Assembly: GCF_000429525.1 (NCBI RefSeq)
Contig: NZ_AUCA01000002.1
Coordinates: 1-64,000 of the forward strand
Origin: Alicyclobacillus contaminans DSM 17975
GTDB taxonomy: Bacteria; Bacillota; Bacilli; Alicyclobacillales; Alicyclobacillaceae
DNA length: 64,000 bases
Direction of reading: 5' to 3'
The notes under the pieces are model-generated. The model worked only from the letters and a program-made list of their open reading frames with translations, ran no database searches and was not told the DNA's origin. Shown here piece after piece: positions 21,840 to 58,671 of this stretch (positions are counted from its first letter, which is position 1; the number at the start of each line of letters is the position of its first letter). A program made the translations under genes and the position numbers.

Positions 21840-21926
21840 TGGTGCGGTCGAGAGGACTTGAACCTCCACGAGCTTGCGCCCACAAGAACCTGAATCTTGC
21901 GCGTCTGCCAATTCCGCCACGACCGC
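21840..21926 (-). tRNA. tRNA-Leu (CAG)
   Basis: An 87-nt class II tRNA including an encoded CCA. The acceptor stem GCGGTCG/CGACCGC is perfect, the loop TTCAGGT gives anticodon CAG, and the T-arm is GGTTCAAGTCC. The variable arm is long, as expected for Leu. It has its own promoter (21962-21990) and terminator. The sequence is identical to the copy at 22102-22188. Confidence 0.97.
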
Positions 21927-22101: not shown

Positions 22102-22188
22102 TGGTGCGGTCGAGAGGACTTGAACCTCCACGAGCTTGCGCCCACAAGAACCTGAATCTTGCGCGTCTGCCAATTCCGCCACGACCGC
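22102..22188 (-). tRNA. tRNA-Leu (CAG), second identical copy
   Basis: Same 87-nt sequence as the copy at 21840-21926, with encoded CCA, anticodon CAG and a long variable arm. The flanks of the two copies differ, and each has its own promoter and terminator. Confidence 0.97.
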
Positions 22189-50141: not shown

Positions 50142-50170
50142 TTGACAACGTGGTAGGCGGCCTGTATAAT
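50142..50170 (+). promoter_or_regulatory. Consensus promoter of the tRNA cluster
   Basis: TTGACA (50142-50147), a 17-base spacer and TATAAT (50165-50170): a perfect sigma-A promoter 41 bases before tRNA-Gln. Confidence 0.95.
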
Positions 50171-50211: not shown

Positions 50212-50285
50212 TGCCGAATGGTGTAATGGTAGCACGACTGACTCTGGATCAGTTAGTCTAGGTTCGAGTCCTAGTTCGGCAGCCA
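50212..50285 (+). tRNA. tRNA-Gln (CTG)
   Basis: 74 nt with encoded CCA. The acceptor stem TGCCGAA/TTCGGCA is perfect, the anticodon loop CTCTGGA gives CTG, and the T-loop is GTTCGAGTC. It is the first of three tandem tRNAs under one promoter. Confidence 0.96.
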
Positions 50286-50286
50286 A

Positions 50287-50361
50287 GGCCCTATCGTCTA
50301 ATGGTTAGGACGCCGCCCTCTCACGGCGGTAATAGGGGTTCGAATCCCCTTAGGGTCACCA
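50287..50361 (+). tRNA. tRNA-Glu (CTC)
   Basis: 75 nt with encoded CCA. The acceptor stem is GGCCCTA/TAGGGTC (last pair G-C), the anticodon loop CTCTCAC gives CTC, and the T-loop is GTTCGAATC. It begins one base after tRNA-Gln ends. Confidence 0.96.
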
Positions 50362-50369
50362 ATGGATGT

Positions 50370-50445
50370 GGGTCATTAGCTCAATTGGTAGAGCATCCGA
50401 CTCTTAATCGGCAGGTTGAAGGTTCGAGTCCTTCATGACCCACCA
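50370..50445 (+). tRNA. tRNA-Lys (CTT)
   Basis: 76 nt with encoded CCA. The acceptor stem GGGTCAT/ATGACCC is perfect and the anticodon loop CTCTTAA gives CTT. Last tRNA of the cluster. Confidence 0.96.
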
Positions 50446-50457
50446 CTCACGTTCCAG

Positions 50458-50487
50458 GCGGCTTTCCGATTGGGAAGTCGCTTTTTT
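50458..50487 (+). terminator. Terminator of the tRNA cluster
   Basis: GCGGCTTTCC (50458-50467) pairs with GGGAAGTCGC (50472-50481), followed by TTTTTT. Confidence 0.88.
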
Positions 50488-50593
50488 GTTGTGCAGGATA
50501 TCGCGGGCGGAATGCGACCGGTGACTTTCTTGAATGGTCGATGTTTCATATGATGAAGATGGTCAAACCGTGTGACGAATGGAGGGGGAATCG

Positions 50594-52447
50594 GTGTACA
50601 CGCGCGGATACAACCGGGAGAGGCGGTTGCGAACGGTGGAGGCTTGGATGGAGCCGTTGTTCGGTACGGTCTATACGGCGGCACAACTGTGGTTTGGGAT
50701 GGATGAACCTCCAACGGGCATTGTGGTGAACACCTGGCTTCGCGTGTACGAAACGCTGTCGCGCGTTCGTTATTTCCCCACGCCGTGCGCGGCCGTGGTG
50801 CACGCTGTGCTGCGAGAGTGCCTCGGCTATGCCCGGCGGGTGTCAGGCACGGTGGCTGAAACGACCGAACCGTCGCCCGACGCGATGGCGGTGCATGCGG
50901 AAAAACGGACGGATGCACCTTCATTGGATGCGGTTGAAACCCCGGAGATATTGCAACGCTTATTTTGGATTTCCCGGTTGTCCGACGACGACAAACTGGT
51001 GGTATTGACGTTTCTGTTGGTGGACGGCGCCGTGTCCACCACCGCTCGAACCTTGCGCCGTCCGCGAAAGTACGTGGAGCATCGCCTGCAGGCCGCATTC
51101 CTAACGGCGATGACGCACGAGTCCGGCGCGGACCGGGAGGCGGATACGTGGGATTCCATCCGCTCCGCACTGATTGAGTATGCGACCACCGTAGAGGTGC
51201 CGGAAGCCAAGGTGACAGAGGCGCGCCAACGGCTGCTTGCGCACGCGGCGCGGCTGGACGCGGAACAGCGACAACGCGGGCCGCGCTGGGTGACGTACGG
51301 CATGGCCGCTGCGAGTGTGTTGGCGCTCGCTGCCATTGCCTACGGTGTTTCCGGACGATCACTGACTGTGTCGGCAGCCGCGCCGTCTGCCCTCACAGCT
51401 TCGAAGGCAAACAACCTGCCGCCACCTGTGGGCAACTTTCCCGGTGTCGTGCTGGCGCAATTTCGCCTGGCTGGCGACGCTCCATCGACAACCGAATTGC
51501 AGCATCTGGCTGTGACGTCGTCCGCACTGTATATTCCTACGCTGAGTACCACGAGCACCTCGTGGCCGTCCATTACGGTGGAGAAGATTCCGTTCACCGG
51601 CTCCGGTGAGTCCCTGACGGCGCATCCGACGCCCGCTGGGAAGATGGACCTGCTGCCGCCGTCGGATTCCGCCGACAGCAATGGAAATACGAAGCACATC
51701 GGCTGGGTGGTGAAGCGTTGGGATTTTCGCGTGACGGGCAGGTGGGCTGTGGCCGTGGTCGAATGGTCCGCGGCGGATGAAAGCAGCACGACCATTTCTC
51801 AGCTGTATCTGCTCTCTCTCACCACCGGCAAATCGAGTTTGGTGAAGACGTTTGACGGCGGCGAGCAAAGCGTGATTGCGGTGGGCGACGGCAAGGTGGT
51901 GGTGCAGACCGCTGTCGTCAGCGGCGGCACGACCGGATCGGCCGCCAAATCGTCCGGGCCCGTCAGCCTTCCCATTGACGTGTATACCCTTCGGGGAGAC
52001 GTGCCCCTTCAAGCATTGGGGGAAGCCAAGCAATTGGCTGCACCGTTCGGTTTTATGAAGAATCCGGTGATCACCGGTGATAGATTGATTTTTCAGGGGG
52101 TGGCCGGGCAGGTGTCGGCGGACGTGGGGGTCGATGAAACGTGGTACGGCCTGTCTTGGGATGGGCAGTTGTCCCGCCTTGATGGCCCGCCGATGGACGG
52201 ACGACCGCACTGGGCGGTGCAGGGGACGTCGGGCCAACCTTGGTGGGTGGAGACCACTCCGGACGATACGGACAGCGGAAGCATTCAGGTGCTGTTTCAT
52301 GCGTTGGCGGACACGGGCGGTGTGAATCAAACGCCGGCGCAGTCGCTCGCGGGGCCAGTCCAGTGGTTCACAGTGAGTGATCAGTACACGGCATGGGTCC
52401 AACAGACGGATAATGTCAAGCAATTGGTGATTGGTGAACCGTCGTAA
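50594..52447 (+). CDS. Sigma-factor-like cytosolic region fused to a membrane anchor and extracellular propeller-like domain
   Basis: 617 residues, not recognised as a named family. Residues about 1-85 ([29 protein letters not shown]) resemble a degenerate sigma region 2. About 115-175 ([23 protein letters not shown], then [22 protein letters not shown]) resembles region 4 with a helix-turn-helix. One membrane helix follows at about 234-254 ([17 protein letters not shown]). The outer about 360 residues have repeated beta-strand patterns such as [14 protein letters not shown], like a beta-propeller sensor. GTG 50594 follows GGAGGGGG. It may combine a sigma or anti-sigma function with a sensor in one chain. 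uvrC follows 23 bases later. Confidence 0.5.
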
Positions 52448-52470: not shown

Positions 52471-54297
52471 ATGACGGAGTGGCTGCGCGACAAACTGAGT
52501 TTGCTCCCCGCCAAGCCGGGCGTCTATCTGATGAAGGACGCATCCGGCAGAGTGATCTACGTCGGTAAAGCGAAGGTTCTCAAGAATCGGGTGCGGTCAT
52601 ACTTTTCCGGCGTGCATGATGGCAAGACGCAGCTCATGGTGAGCCAGATTCGCGATTTCGAATACATTGTGACCGATACCGTGGCCGAGGCGTTGTTGCT
52701 GGAGTGCAACCTGATCAAACAGCACACGCCCCAATACAACATCATGCTGCGGGATGATAAATCGTATCCATACATCAAAATCACCAATGAGGCGCACCCT
52801 CGGTTGGAAATCGTCCGCCGTGTGAAAAAGGACAAGGCGAAGTATTTCGGCCCATATCCCAACGCCACGTCCGCGGCGGAGACGAAGAAATTGTTGGAAC
52901 GGCTCTATCCGCTCCGCAAGTGCAAGACGCTCAAGAAGAAAGTTTGCCTGTACTATCATATCGGGCAGTGCCTGGCGCCCTGCGAATTCCCGGTGGAACC
53001 GACCACCTACGCGGACATCACGCGTGAAATCGCACAGTTTCTGAGCGGAGGCCATACAGAGGTGCAGCGGCGGCTGCGGGAGCGCATGGAGGCGGAGGCG
53101 GAAAAACTGAACTTCGAGCGGGCGAAGGAGCTGCGCGATCTGATTCAGCATATCGACCGCGTGATGCAGGAACAGAAGGTGACGGTCACCGACTTCGTGG
53201 ACCGCGATGTGTTTGGATACCACGCAGACAAAGGGTTGCTGTGCGTTCAGGTATTTTACGTTCGCGCCGGAAAGGTCATTGAGCGCTCGGTGCACATCGT
53301 TCCCCATCACGGAGAACCGGCGGAAGATTTCATGTCATATGTGGAACAATTCTATTACCAGCAACCGGACATTCCGAAGGAAATTCTGCTTCCGCAAGGC
53401 ACAAACAGCGATGCGCTGGCCGAGTGGCTGAACGCAAAATGCCTTCACCCACAGCGTGGCATGAAGCGGCAGTTGGTGGAACTGGCCTGCGAGAACGCCC
53501 GGGTGGCGCTGGACGAGCGGCTGCGGTTGATGGAGAAGAAGATGGACAGAACCCTCGGCGCGATTACGGAACTCGGCGAAGTGTTGGCCATTCCGGTACC
53601 GCGCCGCATTGAGGCGTTTGACAACTCCAATATCCAGGGCGCCGATGCGGTCGCCGCCATGGTGTGCTTCATCGATGGGAAGCCGGCCCGCTCGGAATAT
53701 CGGAAATACAAGATCCGCACGGTCACCGGACCCGACGACTACGCCAGCATGCGCGAGGTGATTCGCCGTCGCTACACCCGCGTGCTGAAGGAACGGCTGC
53801 CGCTGCCGGACCTGATTGTGATTGATGGCGGCAAAGGACAACTGGCGGCCGCCCTGGACGTGTTGGAAAACGAATTGAACCTGGATGTGCCGGTGTGCGG
53901 TTTGGCCAAGGACGAGCGGCACCGCACCAAACAACTGTTCTTCCGGGATGAGGACGAGCCCGTGCAGATGGATCGCCATTCGCAGGCGTTTTATTTGCTG
54001 GAGCGGATTCAGGATGAGGTTCACCGGTTCGCCATCACGTTCCACCGGCAACAGCGCAAAAAAACCGGGTTGCAGTCCGTGCTCGATGACATACCGGGCG
54101 TTGGACCGCAGCGGCGCAAGGCGTTGTTAAAGCACTTCGGCTCTCTTCAGGCCATTCGTACGGCCCCGCTGGAATCGTTTCAAACCATTGGCATTTCGAG
54201 AAAACTGGCGGAGGCTATTCAACAGCATGTGCAACAGTACACACAGCCATCGGAGACGCCTGTGCAGCGGGACGTTTCGGGGCCAACGATTTCTTGA
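52471..54297 (+). CDS. uvrC: UvrABC excinuclease subunit C
   Basis: 608 residues. The N-terminal GIY-YIG nuclease ([23 protein letters not shown], with [14 protein letters not shown]), the UvrB-binding UVR motif ([15 protein letters not shown]), the RNase-H-like C-terminal nuclease ([33 protein letters not shown]) and the helix-hairpin-helix pair ([18 protein letters not shown]) are all present. It makes both incisions around DNA damage bound by UvrB. Full length and intact. Its last bases overlap the sdh promoter. Confidence 0.97.
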
Positions 54298-58443: not shown

Positions 58444-58671
58444 ATGTCTGCCGGCAATGACATGCGCATGAAGTCACTGCTCACAAACCGTGAGCGCGAG
58501 GTCTTCGAGTTGCTCGTGCAGGACAAGACGACAAAAGAAATCGCGGCCCAGTTGTTCGTCAGTGAAAAGACGGTTCGCAACCATATTTCTAACGTGATGA
58601 AGAAGCTGAACGTGAAGGGCCGTTCGCAGGCGGTCGTGGAGCTGGTGCGGCTTGGCGAATTGAACATCTGA
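58444..58671 (+). CDS. gerE: Spore-coat transcription regulator GerE
   Basis: 75 residues, nearly all a LuxR-type helix-turn-helix: LLTNREREVFELLVQDKTTKEIA then VSEKTVRNHISNVMKKLNVKGRSQAVVEL. This matches GerE, the smallest LuxR-family regulator, which controls coat genes late in the mother cell. AAGGAGGG lies 9 bases before the ATG. Its place between sdhB and the MarR/murI genes is as in B. subtilis, which supports the assignment. Confidence 0.93.
   Translation: MSAGNDMRMKSLLTNREREVFELLVQDKTTKEIAAQLFVSEKTVRNHISNVMKKLNVKGRSQAVVELVRLGELNI

Follow-up and report, generated by a model that had tools for sequence, protein, structure and literature searches.

Proteins that join a sigma factor to its anti-sigma factor in one chain are few, and the reports on them regard the known ones as active sigma factors. 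One such protein is IutY (ECF243), from Pseudomonas putida (PMC5411451), and so are those of SCO4117/ECF52, ECF48, ECF53 and some members of ECF36 (PMC8999054). A related layout is found in ECF57, where a sigma domain and a WD40-like C-terminal extension share one chain; by their description these too are treated as sigma factors (PMC8999054). The ECF fold also has a use outside transcription. PhyR of the Alphaproteobacteria, an anti-anti-sigma factor, is described as having a sigma-like domain which, though it adopts the sigma2-sigma4 fold of ECF factors, has no sigma activity (PMC4598750).

Here we consider a gene of Alicyclobacillus contaminans DSM 17975 that lies in a stretch of 64,000 nucleotides, called the window below. 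As these systems are described, the window protein resembles IutY, ECF52, ECF48, ECF53 and ECF36 in having a sigma domain and a membrane-bound anti-sigma part in one chain. The IutY and ECF52 types are described as sigma factors that proteolysis releases or is expected to release, whereas the sigma half of the window protein is degenerate; and, description set against description, the window protein has in addition an outer propeller and is a fixture of a Bacillota family. In ECF36, as described, the extension is N-terminal. The fold predicted for the cytoplasmic part of the window protein matches PhyR structures, and sigma determinants are lost in the family; where PhyR has a receiver domain the window protein has a membrane helix and a propeller, and no receiver domain was matched by Pfam in it. 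SigW-RsiW, RpoE-NepR and CnrH-CnrY, which are among the best fold matches to the predicted structure and share its closed arrangement, are pairs of separate proteins with an active sigma factor, unlike the one chain with a degenerate sigma half found here. The single-chain layout is not itself unprecedented. The present family is set apart by its propeller, by its occurrence in the Bacillota, by a sigma half that is degenerate yet under selection, and by the want of sigma4 in some members. No publication on this family was among the matches listed in the literature searched, though a mention in ECF classification tables is possible. The question posed is a simple one: what is the role of a sigma fold at the membrane once it is no longer a sigma factor?

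The gene and its surroundings

The features referred to below are these, in window coordinates.

50212..50445 (+), tRNA-Gln, tRNA-Glu and tRNA-Lys, conserved upstream neighbours (tRNA scan)
50456..50483 (+), terminator-like hairpin after the tRNA unit (5 such sites in the stretch, 2.6 expected by chance)
50549..50554 (+), -10-like element TATGAT, putatively the gene's own promoter (TA[TC]NAT conserved upstream of relatives)
50594..52447 (+), whole gene, 617 amino acids, GTG start, stop included (open frame, ribosome site, relatives)
50606..50845 (+), sigma2-like domain, residues 5-84 (ECF profile matches; AF2 pLDDT mostly about 90; fold matches)
50849..50935 (+), linker predicted to be disordered, residues 86-114 (pLDDT below 50; high dN/dS in relatives)
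50945..51118 (+), sigma4-like domain with a degenerate helix-turn-helix, residues 118-175 (profile and fold matches, residue comparison)
51128..51190 (+), two short predicted helices from sigma4 to the juxtamembrane helix, residues 179-199 (AF2 model)
51203..51277 (+), juxtamembrane helix, anti-sigma-like, residues 204-228 (alignment, AF2 model, hhalign, dN/dS)
51284..51349 (+), single membrane helix, about residues 231-252 (sequence; model helix 231-248, low confidence)
51440..52444 (+), outer beta-propeller, probably six-bladed, residues 283-617 (AF2 model; Foldseek and VIA-align)
52471..54297 (+), uvrC, conserved neighbour directly downstream (family model)

The 617-residue frame at 50594-52447 is a real, intact gene. 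It has no internal stop, and GGAGG stands 8 nucleotides 5' of the GTG at 50594. An ATG at 50579, five codons 5' of this GTG, is a possible alternative start; a ribosome site was looked for in the upstream sequence before it and none was seen. The frame is not a product of chance, since relatives occur in 40 of 41 genomes of the family and, linkers aside, every part for which dN/dS of relatives could be computed has a value below 0.5.

The gene probably begins its own transcription unit, because the tRNA unit upstream has both its own promoter (50142-50170) and the terminator-like hairpin. That promoter is a perfect consensus, TTGACA-17-TATAAT (12/12), in a stretch where 0.9 promoter-like sites of any quality are expected. 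The hexamer TA[TC]NAT, of the vegetative -10 type, occurs in 20 of 30 upstream regions of the gene and its relatives, the null having a mean of 2.7 and a maximum of 9; for L021 and L094 the starts used were frame positions, not start codons. Might the gene be autoregulated in the manner of ECF genes? This was sought in the same 30 regions, and no AAC-N16-18-CGT promoter was found (0/30), a search of low power as the chance expectation is only 0.8.

The place of the gene between the tRNA trio and uvrC is fixed across the Alicyclobacillaceae. All 48 family loci searched, which comprise 33 distinct places and 15 duplicates out of a second collection, have uvrC, and 41 have gltX, the remaining loci being partly too short in flank; of 37 loci scanned for tRNA genes, 34 have the trio, complete or in part. 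At six uvrC loci of the sister family, by comparison, a tRNA gene stands beside uvrC in 0/6, and a reading of the frames puts a slipin-like gene 5' of uvrC in four. In A. tolerans (L057:2352-3521) more than 1 kb lies between tRNA-Lys and the gene, as against 148 bases in the window.

It had been remarked at the outset that no separate sigma or anti-sigma gene adjoins this one, and that was borne out among the window neighbours scanned with family models, namely lgt, gltX, uvrC, sdhC and sdhA. The sole Sigma70_r4_2 match of the genome inside the window, at 58468-58608, lies in a frame of 115 amino acids whose NCBIfam matches are LuxR-type regulators and which, by the gene order, we take to be GerE.

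Sigma ancestry of the N-terminal part

Searched by itself, the window protein matches no sigma family in Pfam or NCBIfam, so that ordinary annotation would overlook the sigma resemblance, which emerges only when relatives are brought in. Its direct matches, CBM_X2 (0.035) and DUF4936 (0.07), are at chance level and were set aside. Among 30 members of the family the NCBIfam SigC model NF006930 matches 12 at E <= 1 (best 1.3e-9), and Pfam Sigma70_r4_2 and Sigma70_r2 match three each, one member exceeding the Sigma70_r4_2 cut-off (28.5 bits versus 25.7). A profile of residues ~1-180, made from 11 sigma4-bearing members and run on 21 genomes, returned family members first and then other genes. In the A. 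contaminans genome these were the gene itself and then four ECF genes, at 2.3e-14, 4.7e-10, 4.6e-8 and 6.9e-8, which align across most of the profile. Comparison of the N-terminus with five ECFs of the same genome by hhalign gave a probability of 98.8 over 151 columns, E-values for such single pairs being uncalibrated against a database, and a profile search of the PDB gave 13 distinct sequences at E <= 0.1, every one a sigma factor of RNA polymerase, with SigW best at 1e-8. Residues 5-175 are homologous to sigma2 and sigma4 of ECF sigma factors.

Taken singly, the sigma2-only members L012 and L094 match no sigma family either; the N-terminus of L012 matches KaiA (0.0074), DUF6300 and ANAPC5 (both 0.07), and that of L094 nothing. 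The assignment of sigma2 in such members comes from their alignment with relatives and from partial matches to the sigma profile (G009, 4.6e-9; G012, 4.2e-4; G008, 0.0035; G005, 0.0042; G004, 0.022).

From which ECF group did the sigma half come? Descent from SigC-like ECFs was considered: among NCBIfam models SigC matches the family most often, and the best ECF match of the genome has it as its top model (4.4e-47, below the curated cut-off). In a quick tree, with SH-aLRT support only, the fusions group together on long branches and no ECF falls among them. As the tree does not place the fusions among the ECFs, we claim no parent group.

Loss of sigma determinants and selection

The residues of the 11 sigma4-bearing members were compared, in alignment, with those of 48 distinct ECFs, positions 51, 54, 76, 158 and 163 being ones that we take to make core or promoter contacts. 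Two of the lost positions fall in a segment, 67-90, where the alignment may be shifted: the region 2.3 aromatic at position 76, present in 48/48 ECFs and 0/11 family members (alanine in all 11, the window protein included), and the core or structural position 80, kept in 47/48 ECFs and 0/11 family members. The basic residue at 158, in the -35 recognition helix, is found in 47 of the 48 ECFs versus none of the 11. Basic 163 is found in 43 versus none. D51 and Q54, the core-binding D-x-x-Q pair of region 2.2, are each present in every ECF and are together in none of the 11; nor do they occur together in any of 20 further members (L003 and the members without sigma4), one of which, L028, has ExxQE. 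The hydrophobic core positions 77, 122, 125, 150 and 157 are hydrophobic in all 11. By this comparison, most of the polar residues that ECFs keep for binding core polymerase, melting the -10 region and reading the -35 region are lost. A working sigma factor is unlikely, because in all 11 members compared the region 2.3 aromatic, the basic residue of the recognition helix and the D..Q pair are gone, and part of the family has no sigma4. The decay is a mosaic that differs between branches, since aromatic 76 (W, Y or F) is kept in 12 of the 20 further members, which belong to other branches, and L028 has its own variant of the pair.

Is what remains drifting? Selection was estimated as dN/dS by the Nei-Gojobori method in close pairs; the segments are short (30 codons for the helix) and several dS values exceed 1, near saturation. 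Values for sigma2 were 0.04-0.28 in all nine pairs and for sigma4 0.07-0.41 in three of four, the fourth being saturated. The helix gave 0-0.18 in seven of nine pairs, with two saturated, and was the lowest of the cytoplasmic parts in 7/7 computable pairs; in one pair where it is saturated, L004/L005, its dN is greater than that of sigma2 and sigma4. The propeller gave 0.05-0.16 in eight of nine pairs. Linkers ranged from 0.04 to 1.51 where computable, with two values above 1, and the linker equivalent to 86-114 had 0.95 and 0.49 in the relatives where it could be computed. A true ECF from the same genome pairs had 0.04-0.09 in 7/8, and sigma2 lay above it in five of the seven pairs computable for both. 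Sigma2 and the helix are under purifying selection. In most pairs the constraint on the pseudo-sigma falls short of that on a genuine sigma factor, yet it is not absent.

Predicted structure

The full AF2 model has a mean pLDDT of 79.2 and a pTM of 0.56. Values exceed 85 over most of the two large domains and are low in the linker 86-114 and the membrane segment; modelled alone, the cytoplasmic part reaches 82.8 and 0.79. Four of the five best fold matches of this cytoplasmic model are sigma chains solved together with an anti-sigma factor, superposed over both domains: 5uxx (Z 12.6, 3.0 A over 146 residues), 5wuq (Z 12.3, 2.9 A over 143), 5wur (Z 12.3) and 4cxf (Z 11.2), the sigma/anti-sigma matches overall being at 2.9-3.3 A over 141-146 residues. 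The remaining one is SigG1 alone (7qh5, Z 12.1). Polymerase-bound SigH or SigE, aligned over both domains, deviates by 22-29 A, and PhyR structures match with Z up to 9.9. The sigma domains are thus predicted to lie in a closed arrangement like that of the anti-sigma-bound state, one that would resemble only some anti-sigma complexes, since with the RseA, RskA and MucA types the match (Z 7.6-8.2) extends over a single domain. A Z as high as 13 can arise among helical folds through arrangement alone; the sequence evidence lifts this caveat for homology and leaves it standing for the exact arrangement. Foldseek gave no match to the N-terminal model at E <= 0.001, the best being 5wuq at 0.0039.

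The outer domain is a beta-propeller, the best 50 matches listed for its model having Z 10.4-12.8 over 230-282 residues. At the head of these stand Sevenless, neuraminidases, megalin and a trilobed protease propeller, NHL and TolB come lower, and Foldseek ranks WD40 propellers high too. We take most of the leading matches to be six-bladed and the WD40 ones seven- or eight-bladed, and the blade number predicted here is probably six.

Much of the initial annotation withstood these comparisons. It had read the N-terminal 175 residues or so as degraded sigma-70 regions 2 and 4, and beyond the gene itself the profile matches in its own genome, like those in the PDB, are to sigma factors; the profile-to-profile comparison it proposed for residues ~1-180 gave the 98.8 over 151 columns reported above. 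Its membrane helix followed by a large outer domain is likewise recovered, the helix from sequence and the outer domain in the model, and for the latter the structure prediction it suggested returned a propeller fold by AF2, Foldseek and VIA-align.

The juxtamembrane helix

In known complexes, as described, the fourth anti-sigma helix binds regions 2.1/2.2 of sigma2 (PMC7406223). The window protein has no anti-sigma match in Pfam or NCBIfam. A216 and A223 inside its juxtamembrane helix and G229 just after it are invariant in the 30-member alignment, and the helix persists alongside sigma2 in members without sigma4. For comparison, anti-sigma-like frames adjoin the SigC-like ECFs in 19/19 loci, one of them split over two frames, and their position suggests that they are the anti-sigma partners of those ECFs. 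When the family helix was aligned with these genes by hhalign, the probability was 82 and the score 34.3 over 43 columns just before the membrane stretch, column shuffles giving at most 14.6 in 30 trials and the reversed profile 22.5; three of the 30 members (L021, L026 and L027) were left out of the helix profile because no motif was located in them. This one comparison suggests, short of firmly, that helix 204-228 is homologous to an anti-sigma helix.

Distribution and variants

A search with the single protein found relatives in 30 of 61 genomes, and a 30-member profile has matches in all 41 Alicyclobacillaceae genomes, 38 of them across the whole profile. Of the three exceptions, G007 lacks the sigma part and G012 the propeller, and in G010 only an ordinary ECF gene is matched; since uvrC sits at a contig end in G010, the gene may simply fall off the contig there. 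Relatives with a propeller are found in 39 of the 41, the fortieth, G012, being truncated, and the A. contaminans genome has a single copy. The gene is a fixture of the Alicyclobacillaceae, present in 40/41 genomes. The propeller profile has no match in 18 genomes of the sister family. In 397 other genomes of the phylum it has one weak and partial match (G346, 4.7e-6 over 78 positions), which was rejected as a relative: the protein has TPR and FG-GAP matches, and we read the likeness as shared fold only.

Two loci depart from the common layout. At L027:1492-2745 (-), in G007, the protein begins just before the membrane helix and the sigma part is gone; the tRNA trio upstream and uvrC are still in place. 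It retains the invariant residues of the juxtamembrane helix. At L030:1408-2049 (-), in G012, the gene ends soon past the membrane helix, with uvrC about 60 bases on and no propeller. From these two genomes it is clear that the sigma and propeller halves are not strictly tied.

Members also differ in sigma4, which is wholly missing or eroded in part of the family (eroded in L003). On the best tree of the ectodomain a single change separates the sigma2+sigma4 group from all other members, on a branch with support 65/89 that recurs in 68 percent of bootstrap trees, which suggests that one sigma4 event suffices; several independent losses were considered, and the tree needs only the one. The sigma ancestry suggests that the absence is a loss, though the root as drawn, on the long sigma2-only row, would permit a gain too. 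In this tree L003 is unlabelled, L030 is left out, and the position of L027, which entered it as 128 amino acids cut at a wrong motif, carries no meaning. The members with sigma2 and sigma4, with sigma2 only, with no sigma part and with no propeller form a natural series for comparison.

What might the protein do?

We propose that the protein is a membrane-anchored pseudo-sigma that sits on its own anti-sigma-like helix, answers to the propeller and works through contact with another protein, most plausibly as a mimicry of the PhyR kind; we would put the probability of this reading at roughly 45 percent. The anatomy that it presupposes is very probably right, and the mimicry as output is far less likely than the anatomy. 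The steps would be as follows. A fusion in some ancestor of the Alicyclobacillaceae would have put a sigma factor of ECF type on the same chain as an anti-sigma-like segment bound to the membrane. The sigma half would then have become a pseudo-sigma, of which sigma2, and in many members sigma4 too, would still fold. The helix just inside the membrane most likely holds this pseudo-sigma in cis, much as an anti-sigma factor grips its sigma partner, while the propeller most likely binds a ligand or an envelope component. A signal would loosen or tighten the cis complex, the direction being our supposition. The output would be no promoter recognition but a contact made by the sigma-like surface, for which a free anti-sigma factor is the most plausible partner.

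In its boldest form the proposal becomes an outside-in switch, the propeller deciding whether its own helix keeps the pseudo-sigma or lets it go to a free anti-sigma factor elsewhere. We give this form odds of about one in four. It would mean a partner switch of the PhyR type driven directly from the cell surface, with no kinase. It would also mean that a fused sigma factor gave up transcription, and in part sigma4, yet retained its binding fold.

One may ask instead whether the sigma part signals at all. It could be a structural leftover, a folded plug or oligomerisation knob beneath a propeller and anchor that do their work outside. Most of the family-invariant residues do lie in the propeller, sigma4 has been dispensed with or eroded in part of the family, L027, in one genome, has kept the rest without any sigma part, and in 5/7 pairs the constraint on sigma2 is weaker than that on a true ECF. 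Set against this are the purifying selection on sigma2 and the helix while the linkers drift, and the presence of the N-terminal part covered by the family profile in 39 of the 40 members found. We consider a leftover unlikely, though it is the most serious competitor of the mimicry reading.

A second alternative is a working device like IutY, in which regulated proteolysis would free the sigma domain to take polymerase to promoters. The layout shared with IutY and ECF52, as far as these are described (PMC8999054, PMC5411451), is in its favour, as are the predicted closed sigma2-sigma4 fold and the selection on both sigma domains. The loss of core-binding, melting and -35-reading residues, the members without sigma4 and the vegetative-type -10 element upstream in 20/30 make it improbable. 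The same points divide the claim of the initial annotation that the fusion is a one-chain sigma/anti-sigma signalling device: the anatomy stands, with a helix that looks anti-sigma-like at the hhalign probability of 82, and the working switch is not supported, given the lost residues, the partial absence of sigma4 and the vegetative-type -10. Least probable of all is that the juxtamembrane helix acts in trans as the anti-sigma factor of an unlinked sigma, the cis sigma-like part only setting a threshold, for although no cytoplasmic piece is under tighter constraint than the helix in the computable pairs, although its invariant residues survive even where the sigma part is gone, and although it resembles the anti-sigma genes adjoining SigC-like ECFs, such an ECF already has its adjoining anti-sigma-like frame at every one of the 19 loci.

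Some smaller features of the sequences may be recorded. In the member at L026:769-2919 (+), sigma4 is separated from the juxtamembrane helix by a series of repeats resembling KLDAKLDTK, and one propeller loop, at about columns 616-665, is extended in L019, L020, L026 and L029 by long inserts rich in Ser, Gly and Thr. Elsewhere in the window, the reverse strand has two genes for tRNA-Leu, at 21840-21926 and 22102-22188 (-), which share the anticodon cag and are separated by 175 bases.
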